From a virus, in the IMG/VR virus record IMGVR_UViG_3300049491_000668, positions 1 through 51,532 of that record: 51,532 nucleotides of DNA, one strand, 5' to 3'. Made by a program: the position numbers and the translations under genes. This document shows positions 6,685-20,452 of the stretch, in pieces. Each line of letters begins with the position of its first letter. The first letter of the stretch is position 1. The notes under the pieces are model-generated. The model had not been told where the DNA came from. It searched no databases and worked only from the letters and a program-made list of their open reading frames with translations.

Positions 6685-8721
6685 ATGAGCGATTTCAAGT
6701 ACACAGCACCTCGGCCCGTCGCGACTTTGGATTCCGAGTGCTACCAGAACTATTGGTCGATAGGTTTCCGCTCCGTTGCGGATGGTCGCGTGCGCGTCTT
6801 TGAGAAGTACGACGGACAGCCGCTTGACCGTCTCGCCATCGCTCGCATCTTGCGCAGTTGGCGCGTCATCTCCTTCAACGGGATGAACTACGACATGCCG
6901 ATGATCGCGTTGGCGATGAACGGCGCCGACAACGCTACGCTCAAGCGGGCGAGCGATGACATCATCTTGAGCGACCTTCGTGCGTGGGACTTCTACGAGC
7001 GCTATCAGGTCACGCTTCCTGACTTCATCGACCACATCGACACGATGGAAGTGTCGCCAGGCTCGCCGACGAAGCCGAGCTTGAAAATTTACGCCGGCCG
7101 GTTGCACTCGAAGCGGATGCAGGACTTGCCGTTCGAGCCCGACCAGTGGATCACGCCTGACGACCGCGAGGTGCTGTGCGAGTATCTCGGCAACGACTTG
7201 ACCGTCACGCAAGACCTCTACCTCGAACTCAAGTCGCAGATCGACTTGCGGTCGGAGATGAGCGAGCAATACGGTGTCGACGTTCGCTCGAAGTCAGATG
7301 CGCAAGTCGCAGAGGCGGTGCTGAAGACCGAGTTGCAGCGGATCACCGGCCGGAAAATCTACCGGCCCGAGATCAAGCCCGGCACCTTCAACTACAAGCC
7401 TGCGTCGTGGGTCCGCTTCATCACGCCCGAGATGCGTGAGATGCTCAACAAGATCAAGAACGCGCCATTCGTTGTCGACCACGCTGGCACCGTGTGCATG
7501 CCGCAGTTGCTTGAAGACGCGAAGATGCTGATAGGGAAGGGCGCCTATCGAATGGGTATCGGTGGTCTGCACTCGTCCGAGTCGAAGGCGACGCACGTCA
7601 GCGACGACGGGTTCGTCTTGCTCGACCGCGACGTGACGAGTTACTACCCCTCAATCATCCTGAACGGTGGCCTCTATCCGAAGCACCTCGGACAGCAGTT
7701 CTTGGATGTTTACCGCAGCATCTTTCAACGCCGATTGGCAGCGAAGAAGGCCGGCAACAAGAGTGTTGCCGAGACGCTGAAGATCGTCTTGAACGGCAGT
7801 TTCGGCAAGCTCGGCTCGCCCTGGTCGGTCTTGTACTCACCTGACCTGATGATTCAGACCACGCTGACGGGCCAACTGGCCGTGCTCATGCTGATCGAGG
7901 CTGTCGAAGCCAACGGCATCGAGGTCGTGTCAGCAAACACCGATGGCTTCGTCAGCAAGGTGCCTCGCGCACGACGTGACTTCTTCAACGCACTCGTCTT
8001 TGATTGGGAGTGCGACACCGGCTTCGGCACTGAGGAAACCGAGTATCGAGCCCTGCATTCGCGCGACGTGAACAATTACATCGCCATCGGGCAGGGCGGC
8101 AAGGTGAAACTCAAGGGTGCATATGCTCCTGGCGGACCTGGTCAGCCAGGTGCAGCGGGAATGAAGAAGAACCCTGACTGCGAGATCAGCACCGATGCAG
8201 TAGTGGCCTACCTGAAGGATGGCACACCACTCGAAGAGACGATTCACGCCAGCACCGACATCACCAAGTTCGTGACGATTCGCCGCGTGAAGGGCGGCGC
8301 AGAGAAGGACGGGGCCTACCTCGGCAAGGCGATTCGTTGGTACTACGCTGAAGGCGAGACGGGCACGATCACCTACCGGACCAACGGGAATACCGTCCCC
8401 TCGACCGAAGGCGCTCGGCCATGCATGCAGTTGCCGGATGAGTTCCCGACAGACATCAACTATGCGTGGTACGTCCGCGAGGCGAACGCAATCCTTCAGG
8501 ATGTCGGCGCTCGTTCGGTTGATCCTGCGCTCGTCGGGCGCAATGGTGTCATGGTGGCTCGCCTGCCTGACCAGAAGACCTATCACATCGTCACGCTGCC
8601 GTTCGGCGCTGCGCATTGTGGCCGGCAGCCGGCGTCGATCCGTGAGAAGTGGGTCGAGGTTGACGATGTGCCGATGGGTCAGCGGCTTTGCGCGCAGTGC
8701 CGCACTGCCGACACGCTATGA
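6685..8721 (+). CDS. Family B DNA polymerase with proofreading exonuclease
   Basis: A 678-residue replicative polymerase. The 3'-5' exonuclease motifs are present: Exo I D16-x-E18, Exo II around N65 to D70 (FNGMNYD), Exo III Y167-x3-D171. Polymerase motif A is DVTSYYPSII (D316), motif B K366 to N370-G371 (LKIVLNGSFGKLGS), motif C SANTDG (N418-T-D420-G). Motif C has Asn in place of the first Asp of the usual DTD, while the metal-binding second Asp is kept. ATG 6685 has only a weak ribosome binding site. The stop overlaps the nuclease start (ATGA). No terminal-protein gene is seen, so protein priming is not suggested. Confidence 0.88.
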   Translation: MSDFKYTAPRPVATLDSECYQNYWSIGFRSVADGRVRVFEKYDGQPLDRLAIARILRSWRVISFNGMNYDMPMIALAMNGADNATLKRASDDIILSDLRAWDFYERYQVTLPDFIDHIDTMEVSPGSPTKPSLKIYAGRLHSKRMQDLPFEPDQWITPDDREVLCEYLGNDLTVTQDLYLELKSQIDLRSEMSEQYGVDVRSKSDAQVAEAVLKTELQRITGRKIYRPEIKPGTFNYKPASWVRFITPEMREMLNKIKNAPFVVDHAGTVCMPQLLEDAKMLIGKGAYRMGIGGLHSSESKATHVSDDGFVLLDRDVTSYYPSIILNGGLYPKHLGQQFLDVYRSIFQRRLAAKKAGNKSVAETLKIVLNGSFGKLGSPWSVLYSPDLMIQTTLTGQLAVLMLIEAVEANGIEVVSANTDGFVSKVPRARRDFFNALVFDWECDTGFGTEETEYRALHSRDVNNYIAIGQGGKVKLKGAYAPGGPGQPGAAGMKKNPDCEISTDAVVAYLKDGTPLEETIHASTDITKFVTIRRVKGGAEKDGAYLGKAIRWYYAEGETGTITYRTNGNTVPSTEGARPCMQLPDEFPTDINYAWYVREANAILQDVGARSVDPALVGRNGVMVARLPDQKTYHIVTLPFGAAHCGRQPASIREKWVEVDDVPMGQRLCAQCRTADTL

Positions 8722-9008
8722 GCAAGCCGTTCTTCGTCAAGCCGGTGCGAGAAGCTTCGGTCGAAGCTGAAGGCTGCGCCTACGCTCGCGAGCGGGGTTG
8801 GATCGAGTTCAAGATTACGTCACCGTCGAAGCGAGGCTTCCCTGACCGCTTCTATGCACGATGGGGAACGATCCTCTTGGTCGAGTGGAAGAAGCCCGGT
8901 GAGGGTCCAACCCCACAACAGGCGAAACGTCATCGTGAGTTGCGCGCTGCCGGTGTGCTTGTTTGCGTTATAGATAACATGGACTTGGCGCGTGCAGTCT
9001 TTTTTTGA
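8718..9008 (+). CDS. VRR-NUC domain nuclease
   Basis: A 96-residue stand-alone VRR-NUC protein. The PD-(D/E)XK core is visible as GFPDRFYARWG (D43) followed by LLVEWKKPGE (E56, K58), then QQAKRHRELRAAG. Phage members commonly sit next to a polymerase and an SNF2 helicase and are proposed to cleave branched DNA such as Holliday junctions. It starts within the polymerase stop codon (ATGA). The helicase that usually follows directly is about 1.4 kb away here because the attC cassette region intervenes. Confidence 0.85.
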   Translation: MSKPFFVKPVREASVEAEGCAYARERGWIEFKITSPSKRGFPDRFYARWGTILLVEWKKPGEGPTPQQAKRHRELRAAGVLVCVIDNMDLARAVFF

Positions 9009-9044
9009 CGACGGCGAAGCGGCGGTGTGCTGTTACGCCAGTGC

Positions 9045-9231
9045 ATGAGTAAAGCCACTGTTCGAGTTGAGGCGGAGACGACGGTATGACGACAGGCCCG
9101 ACAGAAGGAAAATGTGCCAACCCTGCTGGCGGGCCTGTGCAGTCGCCTATGTTGGCGCCCGCTACCCGAAGGACTGGCCCGCGCTGAAGCCACAACATCG
9201 AAAGCGCGTTCGGCGACGAACTGGCCCTTGA
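9045..9231 (+). pseudogene. Possible frameshifted cassette reading frame
   Basis: ATG 9045 opens a 14-codon frame (MSKATVRVEAETTV) ending at 9089. A one-base skip near 9084 joins it to a frame that runs to 9231 and reads like protein, including KMCQPCWRACAVAYVG and a basic end. A separate 33-codon frame, 9086-9187, ends just before the first attC. The region is therefore either a broken cassette gene or holds a tiny peptide gene; nothing is recognisable. Confidence 0.3.
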
Positions 9232-9241
9232 TGGGTTAGGC
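9189..9241. repeat. attC site 1 (degenerate left core)
   Basis: The right core GTTAGGC (9235-9241) matches the consensus. The left core GCCACAAC (9189-9196) is degenerate but ends in AAC. The interior folds weakly around an apical GTTCG/CGAAC stem (9208-9221). It is identified mainly by its right core and by its position exactly one cassette upstream of a textbook site. Confidence 0.55.
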
Positions 9242-9277
9242 GTCTGCCCCGATAGACTGTCACCGACAAGGATTGAA

Positions 9278-9541
9278 ATGCGGATCAACGTTTACAGCCA
9301 AGAACTCACCGACGAAGTGATCTTGATCGAGAAGGCCAGCAATACTGGCGTGACCTACCACGCGGCGCAGTTGGTGTTGCACTCGTCTCCGAGGTTGCAC
9401 CACCCGCCCGAAGACGATGATCGCAGCGCTGTGACGTTCTGGCTGCCCAAGTCACACGCGCGCCGCGAGGTGATGGCGCTGGCCTTCGAGCGCATTGCAC
9501 AGATGTTCCGCAACGCTCCGGCCGCAACCGGCTTGGACTGA
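9278..9541 (+). CDS. Cassette protein, unknown (87 aa)
   Basis: Function not recognised. The soluble 87-residue product begins MRINVYSQELTDEV, has a beta-rich first half, an acidic turn PPEDDDRSAVTFW and a C-terminal helix (REVMALAFERIAQMF). The style is that of small hypothetical proteins found in integron cassettes and some phages. AAGGA lies 6 bases before ATG 9278 and TAGACT (9252-9257) could be a -10 box of its own promoter. The stop (9539-9541) lies 8 bases before attC 2, as in a typical cassette. Confidence 0.75.
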   Translation: MRINVYSQELTDEVILIEKASNTGVTYHAAQLVLHSSPRLHHPPEDDDRSAVTFWLPKSHARREVMALAFERIAQMFRNAPAATGLD

Positions 9542-9549
9542 ACCCTGAC

Positions 9550-9618
9550 GCCTAACGTTTGACATGAGAGGCAGACGCCGGTACTCCGGGGGCTGTCCTC
9601 TCGATGGAAGGGTTAGGC
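9550..9618. repeat. attC site 2 (textbook structure)
   Basis: The cores GCCTAAC (9550-9556) and GTTAGGC (9612-9618) extend to 10-bp complementary ends. The left inner box CATGAGAGG (9563-9571) pairs with CCTCTCGATG (9597-9606), which has one extra base; another unpaired T is at 9596. Extrahelical bases at these places are a hallmark of attC. The extra bases and the short 5-base spacer are in the right arm, the reverse of the usual plus-strand arrangement. Confidence 0.88.
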
Positions 9619-9640
9619 GTCTTGCGCTCCTTATGTTTAT

Positions 9641-9665
9641 GTCATACACTAACCATAACAGAAGG
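9641..9665 (+). promoter_or_regulatory. Candidate promoter inside cassette 2
   Basis: An AT-rich leader between attC 2 and GTG 9674 contains TACACT and facing TTATG/CATAA repeats, then GAAGGAG. It could give the cassette gene its own transcription; no clear -35 box is visible. Confidence 0.35.
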
Positions 9666-9673
9666 AGCACAAC

Positions 9674-10024
9674 GTGCCGAAGATGACCGCTAGTGAGCAG
9701 AAGGTATTCGATGCACTTATTGACCTGCACGCGGACAAGACGAGCGAGCTTTACAAGCCGGACGGCTCGCAGCGCACGGGTGCAAACGTGCGAATCTACT
9801 TCTGGCATGGCTACAACGGCGAGGCGTGCCCGCGCTCGGCTGGTGGTCTTGGCAAGGCTGCTTGGCACGCCGGCAAGGAATGCAGGCGTCGTGCTGGCGG
9901 GCGCCCTGCAATGGCTGACGAAGACAAGCCGAAGGTGCACAGCGTGCGCTTGAACGATGCGCGCTGGGCGAAGTTTCAGACCCTCGGCCGTGGATGGCTT
10001 GAGGCCGCGATTGATGACGCCTAA
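9674..10024 (+). CDS. Cassette protein, unknown (116 aa)
   Basis: A 116-residue product of unknown function. The N-terminal half is helical and charged (SEQKVFDALIDLHADK), a central Gly/Arg-rich segment carries two cysteines (EACPRSAGG, KECRRRAGG), and the C-terminus (VHSVRLNDARWAKFQTLGRG) resembles the short strand-helix pattern of ribbon-helix-helix proteins. GTG 9674 follows AAGGAG by 7 bases; ATG 9683 is an alternative. Its stop codon lies inside the left core of attC 3, a common cassette feature. Confidence 0.75.
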   Translation: MPKMTASEQKVFDALIDLHADKTSELYKPDGSQRTGANVRIYFWHGYNGEACPRSAGGLGKAAWHAGKECRRRAGGRPAMADEDKPKVHSVRLNDARWAKFQTLGRGWLEAAIDDA

Positions 10025-10107
10025 CGTCGGCGATGAGCGGCCCGCCCGCTCAAGCTGACACGCAGCGCGGCCTGCCTCGGCGGGTCCGCTCGATCAATCA
10101 GTTCGGC
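10019..10107. repeat. attC site 3
   Basis: The left core is GCCTAAC (10019-10025) and the right core GTTCGGC (10101-10107). GATGAGCGG (10032-10040) pairs with CCGCTCGATC (10086-10095), one extra base on the right; CCCGCC (10041-10046) pairs with GGCGGG (10079-10084), with T10085 unpaired. Spacers of 6 and 5 bases match attC 2. Total 89 bases, within the known size range. Confidence 0.85.
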
Positions 10108-10134
10108 CTCTGGTGCCGGAGCGAAAGGACAGTG

Positions 10135-10392
10135 ATGACGCAAGAAGCATTGACCGCCGCTGCATTGAAGCGCGGCGGCCGGTACAACTGGAAGAACCAG
10201 CCCGACCGGCGGGTCTACCTGCGCAAGTTCAACGGCTGGCACCAGTTCAAGAAGATCGGCGACACGCGCGAGGTGTGGTGTGAAGTGCTTGATGCGGACC
10301 TTCACATGCTGGAGGAGACGAAGCCGGATTACGGCGGCATGAACAGCGGCGACCTGATCGCGGCGATGCCGCGTGACGGCGCCGGCTCGTGA
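10135..10392 (+). CDS. Cassette protein, unknown (85 aa)
   Basis: An 85-residue product, unrecognised. It is rich in aromatic and basic residues in the first half (RYNWKNQPDRRVYLRKF, NGWHQFKK) and acidic later (EVLDADLHMLEETKPDYGG). AAAGGA 6 bases upstream supports ATG 10135. The stop (10390-10392) is one base before the GCCGAAC core of attC 4, and the cassette opens with the complementary GTTCGGC, so gene and site belong together. Confidence 0.7.
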   Translation: MTQEALTAAALKRGGRYNWKNQPDRRVYLRKFNGWHQFKKIGDTREVWCEVLDADLHMLEETKPDYGGMNSGDLIAAMPRDGAGS

Positions 10393-10393
10393 G

Positions 10394-10490
10394 GCCGAAC
10401 GTGCTGGTAACCGGGGACCAACGGCCGTGAAGAACGACGACGAAGCCGCGGTGCCTGCTGCCGTTGGTACTCCGGTTGACTTGCAAACTC
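10394..10490. repeat. attC site 4, incomplete right core, overlapping the helicase gene start
   Basis: The left core GCCGAAC (10394-10400) is intact. GTAACCGG (10407-10414) pairs with CCGGTTGAC (10472-10480, one extra base) and ACCAACGGC (10417-10425) pairs perfectly with GCCGTTGGT (10460-10468). Five bases further, where a GTT core is expected, the sequence is AACTCTG, so the right core is lost or changed. The site covers the first 20 or so codons of the helicase frame. Confidence 0.7.
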
Positions 10491-12127
10491 TGATGAGGCG
10501 CGACTTCTTCAATGAACGCATCCGTGCGAAGTTGAGTCATGTCGTTCGTACTCGACGCGACATGCACCTCTACCAAGAAGAGGCGTATGAGTTTCTTCGA
10601 GGCAACCCCTTTTCGGCCCTGTTCATCGACATGGGCCTCGGCAAGACAGTCACCTCGCTGACGCTTGTCGTAGAGCTTCTCAGTGAGTTTGTCGACGATC
10701 CCATACTGATCATCGGGCCGCTTCGTGTGGCCACTGAGACGTGGCCGACCGAGATCAGTCTGTGGGAGCACACCGCGCCGTTCAACTGCGAGGTCATCCA
10801 TGTCTCTGACAACCACCCTCGGGTCAAAGCCGCTCGCGACGCTGCACGTCGGTCGGCCAGGGACGATGGGTGTGATGCTGCGGAAGCTTCTCGCATTGCC
10901 GGCAGGGCGGCAACGATAGAGCGTGACAGCATTCGATGCGGTCTTGCGAGAAGCAAGCGATCCATCCACATTATCAGTCGCGATTGGGTCGAGTGGCTCG
11001 TGAACTTCTACGGTCCACGCTGGCCCTACCGATGCGTGATCATTGACGAGTCGAGTGGTTTTAAGGACCACACGAGCACTCGTTTCAAGTCGCTGGCGAA
11101 GATCAGGCGCACACCCGGCTTGATCACACGTTTGCACGAGTTGACGGCGACGCCTGCCGCCGAGACCTACGAGCATCTCTTTGCGCAGTTGTACTTGATG
11201 GACCTCGGCAAGAGGCTCGGCAAGGACATCACTACCTATCGGCGTCGGTACTTTACTCAAAGTCCGTACACCCGCAAGTATGAACTTCGTCCTGGCGCCG
11301 AGGAAGAAATCCTCGCGAAGATCAGTGACATCTGTCTCGTGATGAAAGTTGAGGACTACCTTGACATCGAGAAGCCGGTGATCGTCCCTCGGCCCGTGTG
11401 CCTGGCCGACGATCAGATGGCGTTGTATGAGCGGATGAGCAAGGACTTTTTGATTCAACTACCTGACGGCACGGAGATCGAGGCTGAGACTGCCGCTGCG
11501 CTCTCGCAGAAACTTTTGCAGATGGCGTCGGGTGTCATTTACGACACGAGGTATGAAGACGACCTCGACGGCGGTTTCGTCAAGGTGCAGACCGTTCACA
11601 AGTTGCACGACCACAAGATCGAGGCGTTGGCTGAGATCGTCGAGGAATCGCAGGGTGCACCTCTCGTCGTTACCTATCACCACAAGTCGTCGCTTGAGCG
11701 GCTGAAGAAAGCCTATCCGAAGGCGACCGTGATGGATCGCGAGGGAAAGTGCGTCAAGGCTTGGAATGCGGGCAAGATTCCGATGCTGTTGATACATCCA
11801 CAGTCAGGTGGACACGGCTTGAATCTTCAGTTCGGCGGGCACCATCTTGTGTTCTTCGACCTGATCTGGTCGCTTGAACTTTACTTGCAACTGATCGGTC
11901 GCCTCGCTCGACAGGGGCAGAAGTATGTCGTCGTGGTTCAACTGCTGATCGCCACCGGGACGCTCGACGAGTTCGTCTTCGAGATGTTGAACGAGAAGGA
12001 AGACGGCCAAGACCGCTTCTTTGCCATGCTCAAGCGGCTGATCAAGCTCCGTCGCAAGGAGAGCATCCCAAACATGAGGGATACGTTCAGTCCACAGAAA
12101 GTGGATAGCACCGCCTATACTTCCTAG
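10427..12127 (+). CDS. SNF2-family DNA helicase/translocase
   Basis: A 566-residue superfamily 2 ATPase. Walker A is MGLGKT (residues 69-74), the DEAH-type box is IIDESS (D207), motif III ELTATPA, and motifs V-VI are SGGHGLNLQ and QLIGRLARQGQ. Phage SNF2 proteins act in replication restart or branch processing and typically neighbour VRR-NUC and polymerase genes. The start is uncertain: GTG 10427 has GGGGA upstream but lies within attC 4, whereas ATG 10493, just past attC 4, has no ribosome binding site. The first 22 residues may thus be cassette-derived. Confidence 0.85.
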   Translation: MKNDDEAAVPAAVGTPVDLQTLMRRDFFNERIRAKLSHVVRTRRDMHLYQEEAYEFLRGNPFSALFIDMGLGKTVTSLTLVVELLSEFVDDPILIIGPLRVATETWPTEISLWEHTAPFNCEVIHVSDNHPRVKAARDAARRSARDDGCDAAEASRIAGRAATIERDSIRCGLARSKRSIHIISRDWVEWLVNFYGPRWPYRCVIIDESSGFKDHTSTRFKSLAKIRRTPGLITRLHELTATPAAETYEHLFAQLYLMDLGKRLGKDITTYRRRYFTQSPYTRKYELRPGAEEEILAKISDICLVMKVEDYLDIEKPVIVPRPVCLADDQMALYERMSKDFLIQLPDGTEIEAETAAALSQKLLQMASGVIYDTRYEDDLDGGFVKVQTVHKLHDHKIEALAEIVEESQGAPLVVTYHHKSSLERLKKAYPKATVMDREGKCVKAWNAGKIPMLLIHPQSGGHGLNLQFGGHHLVFFDLIWSLELYLQLIGRLARQGQKYVVVVQLLIATGTLDEFVFEMLNEKEDGQDRFFAMLKRLIKLRRKESIPNMRDTFSPQKVDSTAYTS

Positions 12128-15969: not shown

Positions 15970-17598
15970 ATGGCTCGCGCCCCTCGCAAGACTCTCACGC
16001 CGGTTCAACCGATCGGCCAAAGCGCCATCGGCGGCGGGCTCGAAGGTGCCGAGCGCACCTCGCGCGAAACTGTGTCGTGGCAACCGGCGATCATCTCGCC
16101 GGACCAGCAGATCAATCCGCTCAAGGAGATGGCCGACGCGCGGGCACGCGACTCGGTGCAGAACGACGGCTATGCGATGGGCGCGGTCTACACGCACCGC
16201 GACTCGATCGTTGGCTCGCAGTACCGGCTTAACGCGCAACCCGACTTCGAGGCGCTCGGCGCGACGCAGGAGTGGGCCGAAGAGTTTCAGCGCGTTGTCG
16301 AATCGCGCTTCAACCTGATTGCCGACAGTCCTGAGTGCTGGCTTGACGCCAGCAGGATGAACACGCTGACGGGGCTCATCCGTCTCAGCGTCGGCGGTTT
16401 CTTGATGACCGGCGAGGTGCTCGGCACGGCCGAGTGGCTGCGCGCCGCCAATCGGCCGTGCAGCACTGCCATCCAGATGATTTCGCCGAGCCGCCTGTCG
16501 AACCCTGACGGCAAGGCCGACGACCGCTACTTGCGGCGCGGCGTCGTGCGTGACTTCTTCGGTGCTCCGCAAGGCCATTGGATTCGTAGTTCACATCCTG
16601 GCGACTTCACGTTCTTCGACGACTCGGCCTACGTGTGGCGTTTCGTTCCGGCGATGAAGCCGTGGGGCCGGCGCCAGGTGCTGCACATCGTCGAGCAGTT
16701 GCAGCCCGATCAAACGCGCGGCGTGGCCGACATGGTGTCTGTGCTCAAGCAGATGCGCATGACGAAGAAGTTCCAAGACGTGACTCTGCAAAACGCCGTC
16801 GTGAACGCGAGCTATGCAGCGGCCATCGAGTCGGAACTGCCGCGTGAGGTCGTGTTCGGCTCAATGGGCGTTGGCCAAGCCGGCTTCGGCGACATGCTCG
16901 GTCAGTACCTGACGCAGTTGCAAGCCTACTCGGGCAACAGCGACAACATTGCGATCGACGGCGTGAAGATGCCGCATCTGTTTCCCGGCACGAAGCTTTC
17001 GCTGAAGCCGATGGGAACGCCTGGCGGTGTCGGCACCGAGTTCGAGGAAAGCCTCTTGCGGCACGTTGCCGCGGCTCTCGGTCTGAGTTACGAGCAGTTC
17101 TCGCGTGACTACAGCAAGACGAACTACTCATCGGCCCGTGCGTCAATGAGCGAGACTTGGAAGTTCATGCAGTCGCGCAAGAAAGTCGTTGCCGACCGCA
17201 TGGCAACGATGATCTATACGCTGTGGCTCGAAGAAGACCTCAACGCTGGCAACCTGCCGTTGCCCAAAGGCATGGGGTCGGAAATCTTCTATGACCCCGT
17301 GAAGCGTGAAGCTCTCACCAACTGCGATTGGATCGGCGCGTCGCGCGGCCAGATCGACGAGTTGAAAGAGACGCAAGCTGCGGTGATGCGCATCAACTCG
17401 GGTCTCTCGACCTACGAGAAGGAATGCGCCCGACTCGGCGAAGACTTCCGCCGCATCTTCAAGCAGGCCGCTCGTGAGAAACGGATGATGGCCGAACTCG
17501 ACCTGACGTTCGGTACCGATGCGACCAAGCCTGGTCACAACGATGCGCAGCAGACCATGGACGAGTCCGACAAGCGGCCCGCGAAGGAAGCCGCGTGA
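15970..17598 (+). CDS. Portal protein, lambda gpB-like
   Basis: A 542-residue portal protein. Typical lambda portal segments are visible: DARARDSVQNDGYAMGAV near the N-terminus, RRQVLHIVEQLQPDQTRGV in the middle and LGLSYEQFSRDYSKTNYSSAR in the clip/stem region. Twelve copies should form the ring through which DNA enters the head. ATG 15970 is two bases after the gpW gene. The next gene encodes the protease, as in lambda. Confidence 0.9.
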   Translation: MARAPRKTLTPVQPIGQSAIGGGLEGAERTSRETVSWQPAIISPDQQINPLKEMADARARDSVQNDGYAMGAVYTHRDSIVGSQYRLNAQPDFEALGATQEWAEEFQRVVESRFNLIADSPECWLDASRMNTLTGLIRLSVGGFLMTGEVLGTAEWLRAANRPCSTAIQMISPSRLSNPDGKADDRYLRRGVVRDFFGAPQGHWIRSSHPGDFTFFDDSAYVWRFVPAMKPWGRRQVLHIVEQLQPDQTRGVADMVSVLKQMRMTKKFQDVTLQNAVVNASYAAAIESELPREVVFGSMGVGQAGFGDMLGQYLTQLQAYSGNSDNIAIDGVKMPHLFPGTKLSLKPMGTPGGVGTEFEESLLRHVAAALGLSYEQFSRDYSKTNYSSARASMSETWKFMQSRKKVVADRMATMIYTLWLEEDLNAGNLPLPKGMGSEIFYDPVKREALTNCDWIGASRGQIDELKETQAAVMRINSGLSTYEKECARLGEDFRRIFKQAAREKRMMAELDLTFGTDATKPGHNDAQQTMDESDKRPAKEAA

Positions 17599-17608
17599 GC
17601 ACGCTCGG

Positions 17609-17630
17609 TACAATGTGTGGATTCATCCAC
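17609..17630 (+). promoter_or_regulatory. TACAAT box followed by a GTGGA/TCCAC hairpin
   Basis: TACAAT (17609-17614) is followed after two bases by GTGGA-TTCA-TCCAC (17617-17630), then AAAGGAA and GTG 17644. No -35 box is visible. The half-sites are in the reverse order compared with the 3857 and 12091 palindromes. Confidence 0.4.
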
Positions 17631-17643
17631 CGAAAGGAACGCT

Positions 17644-18942
17644 GTGAGCGATGACGTTGCCCGCGCCGCACTGTCGCGCATGAACCTGCGCGAGATCGCC
17701 GTCGCGCCGCACTACACCGGCATCGGGCCTGACCTCAAGTTGCTGGCCAGCACCGATGTCGAGGACGGCAAGAACGCCTTCATGGCGCGTCGTGCCGAAC
17801 TGTGCGCAGCCTACGGTCTCGACGGCTCGGTGCAGAGCAAGCCGTTCGCGTTTGCGGGCGGCGTTGCCATCATCCCGATCACCGGCCTACTGATCAACCG
17901 CTTCGGCCAGTCCTACGGTTTCATCACAGGCTACAACTTCTTGCGTTCTCAGGTGGCGCTCGCTGGCCAAGATGCGGACGTGAAGGCCATCGTCTACGAC
18001 GTGAACAGTTTCGGCGGTGAGGCTGCCGGGTGTTTCGAGTGCTCGGCCGACATGAAGCGCCTGGCCAATGGCAAACCGACGATGGCAGTCGTGGACTCGA
18101 ACTGCTACAGCGCTGCATTCGCGACCGCGAGTTCTGCCGACAAGATCGTCTCGACGCCGAGTGGCGGCATCGGCTCTGTCGGTGTCGTGGCGATGCATGT
18201 CGACATGAGCAAGATGCTCGCCGAGTGGGGTATCGACATCACCTTCATCTTTGCCGGCGATCACAAGGTCGACGGCAACCCCTACGAGGCATTGTCGGCC
18301 GAGGTGAAGGCCGACATCCAAGCCAGCATCGACAAGAGCATGAACGCCTTCGTTTCGCTCATTGCCACCAATCGCGGGATGACCGAGAAAGCCGTGCGTG
18401 ACACGCAAGCTCGTTCGTACCGGGCCGAGGACGCACTTGCTCTCGGCTTCATCGACGCCATTGCATCGCCTTCCGAGGCGGTGCATGCGTTCCTCGGCGA
18501 GCTATCCGGCTCGACACTTCACTCTCAACAGGAGGTCAACATGACCGATGCAACAAAGCCGGGCGCCGAAACGAAGGCCGAACCCGCAAACACCGAAGCG
18601 GCTGCGGCCGAAGCTCGCACCACGGAACGCGCCCGCATCTCGGGCATCCAGGGCTGCGAAGAAGCCAAAGGCCGCGAGTCGCTCGCGAACCATCTGGCCT
18701 TGAACACCGACATGAGCGTGGACGCCGCCAAGGCCGTTCTCGCCGCGTCGCCGAAGACCGAGCCCGTCAAGACCGAAACTGCGAATCCCTTCAAGGCTGC
18801 GATGGACGGCAGCAAGCACCCCAACGTCGGCGCCGAGACCGGCAGCGGCGGCAATGGTGGCGACGGCGCCGAAGCCCCGCATCTGGCCATCCTGCGTGCG
18901 CAAGAGCAGGCCACGGGCGTCAAGTTGCTGACGGCTGCCTGA
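17644..18942 (+). CDS. Prohead protease (S49, lambda gpC-like) with C-terminal scaffold domain
   Basis: A 432-residue serine protease fused to a scaffold domain. The catalytic pair is probably S156 (NCYSAAFATAS) and K208 (DHKVDGNPYE), a spacing of 52 as in lambda gpC. The C-terminal third is low-complexity Ala/Glu/Lys-rich, as in gpNu3. It directs head assembly and then removes the scaffold. AAAGGAA supports GTG 17644. Confidence 0.9.
   Translation: MSDDVARAALSRMNLREIAVAPHYTGIGPDLKLLASTDVEDGKNAFMARRAELCAAYGLDGSVQSKPFAFAGGVAIIPITGLLINRFGQSYGFITGYNFLRSQVALAGQDADVKAIVYDVNSFGGEAAGCFECSADMKRLANGKPTMAVVDSNCYSAAFATASSADKIVSTPSGGIGSVGVVAMHVDMSKMLAEWGIDITFIFAGDHKVDGNPYEALSAEVKADIQASIDKSMNAFVSLIATNRGMTEKAVRDTQARSYRAEDALALGFIDAIASPSEAVHAFLGELSGSTLHSQQEVNMTDATKPGAETKAEPANTEAAAAEARTTERARISGIQGCEEAKGRESLANHLALNTDMSVDAAKAVLAASPKTEPVKTETANPFKAAMDGSKHPNVGAETGSGGNGGDGAEAPHLAILRAQEQATGVKLLTAA
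18541..18942 (+). CDS. Scaffold protein, nested in-frame start (Nu3-like)
   Basis: ATG 18541 within the protease gene is preceded by CAGGAGG at optimal distance, giving a separate 133-residue product identical to the C-terminal scaffold domain. In lambda, Nu3 is made the same way from within gene C. The strong internal ribosome binding site in an otherwise coding region is the main evidence. Confidence 0.75.
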   Translation: MTDATKPGAETKAEPANTEAAAAEARTTERARISGIQGCEEAKGRESLANHLALNTDMSVDAAKAVLAASPKTEPVKTETANPFKAAMDGSKHPNVGAETGSGGNGGDGAEAPHLAILRAQEQATGVKLLTAA

Positions 18943-18982
18943 ACGACCACCAACCAACTTCCAACTTTTCAAGGAGTCAGAA

Positions 18983-19345
18983 ATGGCTGTCAATGATCTC
19001 GCAAGCTGGGCCGAGTATGGTCCCTACACCCCCGAGCAACTGTTCGCAGGCGATGCGAAGGTGGTCAGCAACAACGCGCCCTCGTTGGTCGCTTCGCTGG
19101 CCAAGTACGAACTCGCTGCGCTGACGGCGACCGGCGTCACGACCTTCGTCACCGGCACGCACACCATCGCCGATGCCGTCGTCGTGGCGCAGCCCATCAC
19201 TGCCATTGGCCAACAGGTGCCGTACTTTGCGGCCGGCTTCTTCAACCACGCCGCGATCACCTGGCCTGCCGCTCTGTCGACCCTGGCCCTGCGCAAGGAC
19301 TTCTGCGGCAACTCGCCGATTCAAGTCGGCGCCATCACTCCCTGA
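18983..19345 (+). CDS. Head decoration protein, lambda gpD-like
   Basis: A 120-residue capsid-stabilising protein. The gpD signature is the late segment VPYFAAGFFNHAAITWP; the N-terminal region is Ala-rich and flexible. Trimers cap the expanded head at threefold positions. AAGGAG precedes ATG 18983. Position between scaffold and major capsid genes matches lambda. Confidence 0.9.
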   Translation: MAVNDLASWAEYGPYTPEQLFAGDAKVVSNNAPSLVASLAKYELAALTATGVTTFVTGTHTIADAVVVAQPITAIGQQVPYFAAGFFNHAAITWPAALSTLALRKDFCGNSPIQVGAITP

Positions 19346-19396
19346 TCGGCCGGCAACGGCACCACCCACAACCCGCCGACTGAAAGGAAATTCATC

Positions 19397-20452
19397 ATGG
19401 CAGGCGCAATCTACGACAACACGACCTTGCTTCAGGTCATGCGTTTTCAGAAGCAACTCACGCCGTTCTGGCTCGGGTTCTTCGGTTCGCAAATCAACTT
19501 CGAGACCGAGGACATCCTGTTCGACCGCGTGAACACCGACTACCGCAAGCTCGCGCCCTTCGTGGTGCCGAACGTGCAAGGCCAGGTGCACGGCATGACG
19601 GGTTACGACAGCATCTCGTTCAAGCCGGCCTACGTCAAACCGAAGTACGTGGTCGACCCGAACATGGTCATCCCCCGTCAGCCTGGCGAAGCGCTCGGCA
19701 GCGGCAGCCTGTCCTACGACCAACGTCGTGACGCCGTCATTGCCGAACTGACCAAGCAGATGCGGTCGATGCTCACGAACCGCAACGAGTGGCTCGCGGC
19801 CCGCGCGCTGATCGACGCGCAAGTGACCATCTCGGGCGACAACTACCCGGCCCGCACGGTCGACTTCCGCCGTCACGCCAGCTTGAGCTACACGCTCTTG
19901 ACCGGCGCCCGGTGGAGTCAGTCCACGGCAACCCCGCTGGCCGACTTGCAGAACGCCCGCATCAATGCGAACAACCGCAGCGGCGCGCGCATCAAGAAGA
20001 TCGTGTTCGGCGGCACGGCATGGGACTACTTTGCCAAGCATCCGAACGTCGACCTGAAGGCGCTGCAAGACCGCAACTTCGGCGGCATCAATGCCGACGT
20101 GCAGCGCATCTACGACGGCTACGAGGGCCAGGAGTACATGGGCCGCATCTCGGGCTCGATGGGCGGCGGCACGCTCGAACTGTGGGTCGACACCAGCAAG
20201 TACGTCGACCAGGCCGGTGCGGAACAGTTCTTCCTCGATCAGAAGACGGTGGTCGGCATCTCCGAGATGGTCGAAGGCGTGCGGTGCTTCGGCGCCATCA
20301 AGGACTTCGACGCGCGCCTGCAACCGCTCGAAGTGTTCATGAAGAACTGGCGCAACGAAGACCCGAGCGTCGAGTACCTGTTGGGCCAGTCGGCCCCGTT
20401 GATGGTGCCGAAGCGCCCGAACGCCACCTTCAAGATTCTGACCTCGGACTGA
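19397..20452 (+). CDS. Major capsid protein, lambda gpE family
   Basis: A 351-residue HK97-fold capsid protein of the E family. Recognisable parts: an N-terminal arm (FQKQLTPFWLGFFG), the conserved APFVVPNVQGQVHG, KQMRSMLTNRNEWLAARAL and the C-terminal LLGQSAPLMVPKRPNATF. AAAGGAAA precedes ATG 19397. A terminator-like hairpin follows the gene. Confidence 0.93.
   Translation: MAGAIYDNTTLLQVMRFQKQLTPFWLGFFGSQINFETEDILFDRVNTDYRKLAPFVVPNVQGQVHGMTGYDSISFKPAYVKPKYVVDPNMVIPRQPGEALGSGSLSYDQRRDAVIAELTKQMRSMLTNRNEWLAARALIDAQVTISGDNYPARTVDFRRHASLSYTLLTGARWSQSTATPLADLQNARINANNRSGARIKKIVFGGTAWDYFAKHPNVDLKALQDRNFGGINADVQRIYDGYEGQEYMGRISGSMGGGTLELWVDTSKYVDQAGAEQFFLDQKTVVGISEMVEGVRCFGAIKDFDARLQPLEVFMKNWRNEDPSVEYLLGQSAPLMVPKRPNATFKILTSD

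Follow-up and report, generated by a model that had tools for sequence, protein, structure and literature searches.

A phage replication module with an integrase-less integron cassette fragment of apparently reversed gene polarity

A phage genome carries a fragment of an integron cassette array in its replication module. The fragment has genuine attC sites, integrase-type cassette ends, a well-defined insertion site and an inverted gene polarity, which recurs in most related viral arrays. The window that we analysed, 51,532 bases, is a single complete IMG/VR virus record. Our preferred explanation, to which we give a probability of roughly 0.78, is that the insert is an integrase-less array fragment in a Casjensviridae-like phage, that its cassettes belong to a phage-type, reversed class and that they were moved in trans. 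A cassette of this class would begin with its attC, followed by a gene that lies on the recombinogenic bottom strand and whose stop codon falls at the next crossover; bacterial cassettes have the reverse layout. It is the polarity that is new here, as attC clusters without an integrase have already been published for phages. The excerpts of Qi et al. 2023 (PMC9892861) available to us report such clusters (CALINs) in phages TJE1, PH101 and P12002L, show that phage attC bottom strands recombine with attI1 and that the TJE1 attCs are functional, and propose phages as cassette vehicles. The window shares with these CALINs an integrase-less cluster of attCs in a phage genome. The polarity of the genes relative to attC is not raised in those excerpts, and we found no description of reversed cassettes in phages in the open-licence papers searched.

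The window encodes a primase, an exonuclease, a DNA polymerase, a terminase, a portal and a tape measure protein, and its helicase is closest to those of Casjensviridae phages, e.g. MA11, AH2 and BcepNazgul. The insert comprises 1,484 bases and three small plus-strand genes. On its left is a VRR-NUC-type endonuclease (8718..9008, + strand; PHROG endonuclease and Holliday junction resolvase families, syntenic with Casjensviridae) and on its right a SNF2-type helicase (10493..12127, + strand), whose ATG at 10493 is close to the onset of homology, near residue 41 of the open reading frame 10373-12127. The window phage has its polymerase-endonuclease-helicase order in common with AH2, BcepNazgul, MA11, UF_RH7 and phiAxp-2. 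Unlike in the window, the endonuclease and helicase overlap, touch or almost touch in these phages, as they do in FoX4 and most IMG/VR relatives, and no attC was found near the junction in AH2, BcepNazgul, MA11, UF_RH7 or phiAxp-2. The sequence-only reading of this DNA had placed the insertion between these two genes, and comparison with phages without the insert upholds this, the site being empty in most relatives. Three other relatives hold unrelated genes at the junction, which is therefore a hotspot for accessory genes. The cargo there is a DNA methyltransferase in L007 (4922-5995) and other genes in L005 (679-1037) and L006 (5642-5998). L007, a relative of the window phage, also has a weak attC-like site (473-534, 20.5 bits) 5.5 kb upstream of its helicase.

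In order to identify attCs we used a covariance model, R1, whose 23 training attCs all came from bacterial chromosomal integrons and none from the window. The sources were arrays at integron integrase loci in genomes of the Zoogloea family, with the attC most like the window left out. Applied to 242 kb of bacterial arrays, R1 detects 92 sites; in 452 kb of helicase-related viral DNA it has one marginal match. Within the window it recovers attC2 (9550-9618, predicted bottom strand on +, crossover at 9555|9556) with 54.1 bits and an E-value of 2.6e-14, and the full attC3 site (10019-10107, predicted bottom strand on +) with 38.3 bits and an E-value of 2e-9. The bottom-strand DNA fold of attC2 has a z-score of -6.8 and is equalled by 0/200 shuffles. 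The whole attC3 site folds no better than shuffles, so the support for attC3 is the R1 match together with its inner stem, which by itself scores 19.6 bits (E 1e-3). Both sites have paired R and L boxes, unpaired 6- and 5-base spacers and an extrahelical G in L''. R' and R'' are mismatched in attC3, because its R' derives from cassette B. As the sequence-only reading held, attC2 and attC3 are genuine attC sites. A blastn search with the entire insert as query, run on 72,556 plasmids, returned 114 records, and the matches listed all align attC2 with the attC of aac(6')-Ib cassettes, at about 76% identity over the site. An Rfam search gave no match. The sedentary chromosomal integrons of the Zoogloea family (Betaproteobacteria) have the attC type in common with the window, and one of their sites (L177, 17006-17077) has arms near-identical to those of attC2.

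The two outer sites, previously described as weaker attCs, are remnants. The left boundary region (9009..9234, no strand assigned, 226 bp) has no recognised attC, no R1 match above background and a fold not superior to shuffles. It is possibly an eroded attC1, with the arm CTTGATGG before the R'' box GTTAGGC of cassette A (9235..9241, + strand; complementary to GCCTAAC at 9550); only this R'' and the shortened arm are retained. The attC4 remnant (10394..10490, + strand) has the R' box GCCGAAC and a stem, GGTAACCGG/CCGGTTGACT, with an extrahelical G, and lacks R''. The L boxes in this stem are identical to those of the bacterial attCs L165 and L190, and the fold has a z-score of -2.7, with 4/200 shuffles as good. 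R1 does not match attC4, also when it is rescored on its own stretch. Judged by boxes, spacers and extrahelical G, attC1 is not an attC and attC4 is one in part. As both are degenerate, attC2 and attC3 look to be the sole sites in the window able to recombine.

In cassette arrays the R'' of a cassette is expected to pair with the R' at its far end, rather than with the R' box of the attC to which it belongs. The window follows this rule. From the predicted bottom-strand assignment the crossovers are at 9555|9556, 10024|10025 and 10399|10400. Cassette B (9556..10024, + strand) runs from attC2 through the gene P0002 to the next crossover, with the ends GTTAGGC at 9612 and GCCTAA at 10019-10024, and cassette C (10025..10399, + strand) from attC3 through P0003, with the ends GTTCGGC at 10101 and GCCGAA at 10394-10399. 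Extended by one base, the matched ends are GTTAGGC at 9235 with GCCTAAC at 9550, GTTAGGC at 9612 with GCCTAAC at 10019, and GTTCGGC at 10101 with GCCGAAC at 10394. That is, R'' is complementary to the R' at the opposite end of its own cassette in 3/3 window cassettes, and the core matches noted in the sequence-only reading hold for all of them. The Zoogloea family integrons obey the same end-matching rule. Across 246 viral cassette pairs, 3.63 of the 4 variable bases pair between the R'' of one attC and the R' of the next, compared with 2.85 within one attC; permutation gives 2.75, and the highest of 2000 permutations 2.88. The values for 58 bacterial cassette pairs are 3.71 across the cassette and 2.62 within one attC. 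This pairing is the signature of integrase recombination. The layout of the window cassettes is attC first, gene next and stop codon near the following crossover, with the TAA of P0002 abutting the crossover exactly; among viral cassettes the median distance from stop to crossover is 0 nt, and the median start lies 24 nt past the attC. A CALIN is defined by at least two nearby attCs and no integrase. Here attC2 and attC3 are 400 bp apart and the 51.5 kb record encodes no IntI, which bears out the proposal of a CALIN-like array; an intI with attI, as in a complete integron, is absent from the window.

The sequence-only reading had a host integron integrase putting the cassettes into the phage. 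Real attCs and integrase-type ends agree with this, but the array has a broken attC at either end instead of a clean junction between an attC and a secondary site, so that homologous or illegitimate recombination, capturing part of an array, would account for the insert equally well. A piece of an array may thus have been pasted passively into the hotspot, its sites now being inert passengers. We consider this possible, if somewhat doubtful: the presence of unrelated genes at the same junction in three relatives suits it, whereas attC2 and attC3 retain good boxes and matching ends, and the conservation of polarity and geometry over many phages argues for continued use of the pool. Passive capture concerns the last insertion step alone and can be compatible with our preferred explanation.

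The polarity of the genes follows from the strand that recombines. Cleavage by IntI falls between the A and C of R' on the attC bottom strand, which also bears an unpaired G in L'' (PMC2727003). The window has this unpaired G on its + strand, within the 3' arm, and the + strand is therefore predicted to be the recombining bottom strand; it had earlier been taken for the top strand, which has to be reversed. The aac(6')-Ib cassette of class 1 integrons has an attC like attC2 and its gene on the opposite strand relative to it: with the attC oriented like attC2, the gene is on the minus strand, and the canonical coding strand is therefore the one opposite the window's + strand. The three window genes, P0001 to P0003, thus lie on the bottom strand, each downstream of its own attC, whereas a canonical cassette gene is on the top strand and upstream of its attC. 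Canonical integron cassettes have a fixed layout, in which one promoter expresses the captured genes. The genes of the Zoogloea family integrons are, unlike those of the window, mostly on the canonical strand and divergent from intI. Several independent lines (the extrahelical G, the aac(6')-Ib match, the orientation of intI and the bacterial controls), within one attC lineage, thus point to a reversal.

We surveyed this polarity in viral contigs gathered by homology to P0001 and by four strand-independent attC-arm patterns, applying one attC model and one ORF caller to all viral and bacterial cassettes. Phage genes are present on these contigs (for portal, terminase, tail, RecT, RecE, Erf, DnaB and polymerase). 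In this set, drawn via betaproteobacterial-like attC arms and P0001 and with several loci sharing metagenomes or contigs, 292 cassette genes are on the bottom strand and 20 on the canonical strand, and 86 of the 92 loci lean towards the bottom strand, with 2 canonical and 4 ties. The bacterial control, which is one family (Zoogloea), has 13 bottom-strand and 59 canonical chromosomal cassettes, with 15/16 loci canonical (Fisher p 4e-39 for viral vs bacterial polarity, with cassettes treated as independent). Genes with a clear ribosome-binding site divide in the same manner: 237 bottom-strand and 4 canonical in viruses, 9 and 28 in bacteria. The published virulent phage TJE1, analysed here, has canonical polarity, in contrast to the window and most sampled viral contigs, and the reversal is hence a rule for the pool sampled here and does not extend to every phage.

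Searches with the three cassette proteins, as proposed in the sequence-only reading, gave a phage family for P0001, weak plasmid relatives for P0002 and relatives in bacterial arrays for P0003. P0001 (cassette A; 87 aa, 9278..9541, + strand) belongs to the phage family phrog_20753, of unknown function (E 1.4e-44). With 123 viral relatives, 10 bacterial loci and no match among plasmids, the family is found almost only in phages. It is a very widespread, highly conserved small protein in phages of Proteobacteria and Actinobacteria. A relative also sits as a cassette in L066; the phage relatives L226, L230 and L231 have no attC nearby, so P0001 is usually not a cassette. P0002 (cassette B; 116 aa, 9674..10024, + strand) has no relatives in 299 host-family genomes, and P0003 (cassette C; 85 aa, 10135..10392, + strand) is phrog_30689-like (E 4e-11). 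A pattern scan found no close viral relatives of either, and no attC was found near the plasmid relatives of P0002 that were examined (L227-L229) or near the phage relative of P0003 (L232). Three bacterial copies of P0003, in two host-family genomes, each lie between attCs and on the bottom strand; phage-type cassettes therefore seem to enter bacterial integrons. The Zoogloea family arrays L202, L203 and L204 have a minority of bottom-strand cassettes, P0003 relatives included, as if imported from phages.

Could these be ordinary host cassettes, inserted by a host integron integrase at a secondary, attG-like phage site, with their orientation incidental? P0003 has its relatives in bacterial chromosomal arrays, IntI is frequent in host-family genomes (encoded by 92/151 Zoogloea family genomes), and there is precedent for insertion of the attG type (Loot 2024, cited in PMC12901181). 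We nevertheless find this improbable: the window genes are reversed relative to host cassettes, the P0001 family is nearly absent from bacterial genomes and plasmids, the host copies of P0003 are themselves reversed, and neither end of the array is a clean insertion junction. As the genes are on the recombining strand and the cassette A family is almost confined to phages, the window genes probably belong to a phage-type pool, with an integrase acting in trans.

That integrase might be the IntI of the host or of another phage. A full IntI (428 bits) is found in 1/50 attC-bearing viral contigs, G331 (IMGVR_UViG_3300034053_000051), which also has tape measure and virion genes. Its cassettes, its intI and the attI-like stretch between them (16878-19513) are all co-directional, whereas in bacterial integrons the cassettes and intI diverge. 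A virus with an IntI-like protein among co-directional genes, Rctr41k, was set aside, as no attC was found there. We infer a strand mechanism behind the reversal. Reversed cassettes could be read along the phage operon, co-directionally with intI, and were the operon to read into intI, only reversed cassettes would be expressed. If replication runs the same way, the folding strand would be on the lagging template, which may favour recombination; in Vibrio cholerae, excision rises strongly when attC bottom strands are relocated to the lagging template (PMC11023631).

More generally, we lean slightly towards the idea that phages own a separate integron class, of attC-first cassettes with the gene on the recombining strand and the start often in the hairpin, co-directional with an IntI that is their own or borrowed; such cassettes would be exchanged among phages and would at times escape into bacterial integrons. 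If true, phages would run a gene-exchange system of their own, with a layout opposite to canonical cassettes, and a phage pool would account for the movement of small accessory genes among phages that are not related. The effects of strand choice, transcription and replication on integron recombination would also become testable. The reversed pool would point to two-way traffic between phages and bacterial integrons.

A ribosome-binding site and an ATG or GTG lie inside the hairpin, with a frame of at least 60 codons beyond, in 71/428 viral attCs, compared with 1/428 on the other strand and 1/94 bacterial attCs. It is very improbable that the hairpins function in RNA, as terminators or for ribosome entry, and merely resemble attC: the starts in these 71 hairpins are on the coding strand, as that idea would have it, but integrase recombination, and not termination, explains the extrahelical bases, R boxes and end matching, attC2 matches the attC of a known resistance cassette, and the window hairpins are not followed by a T-run. 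A role in RNA may be additional to that as attC. The window genes have their own ribosome-binding sites after the hairpin. We rejected the assignment of the hairpin start codons to the upstream cassette, as the crossover position places them in the same cassette. Examples of loop starts are L218 2733-2835, L211 1421-1522, L244 4108-4202, L256 2899-2993 and L351 5590-5684, among others; in these the frame continues across the hairpin and on into the gene of the cassette. Gene bodies that differ from one another follow similar leaders, e.g. MNDELSPAKVRLTDGLG, in viral attCs. In the window (10428-10495), the helicase frame extends upstream without a stop into the attC4 loop, with VKNDDEAAVPAAVGTPVDLQTL before MRRDFF, and this leader resembles the PVD-containing leaders that start in the hairpins of other viral attCs.
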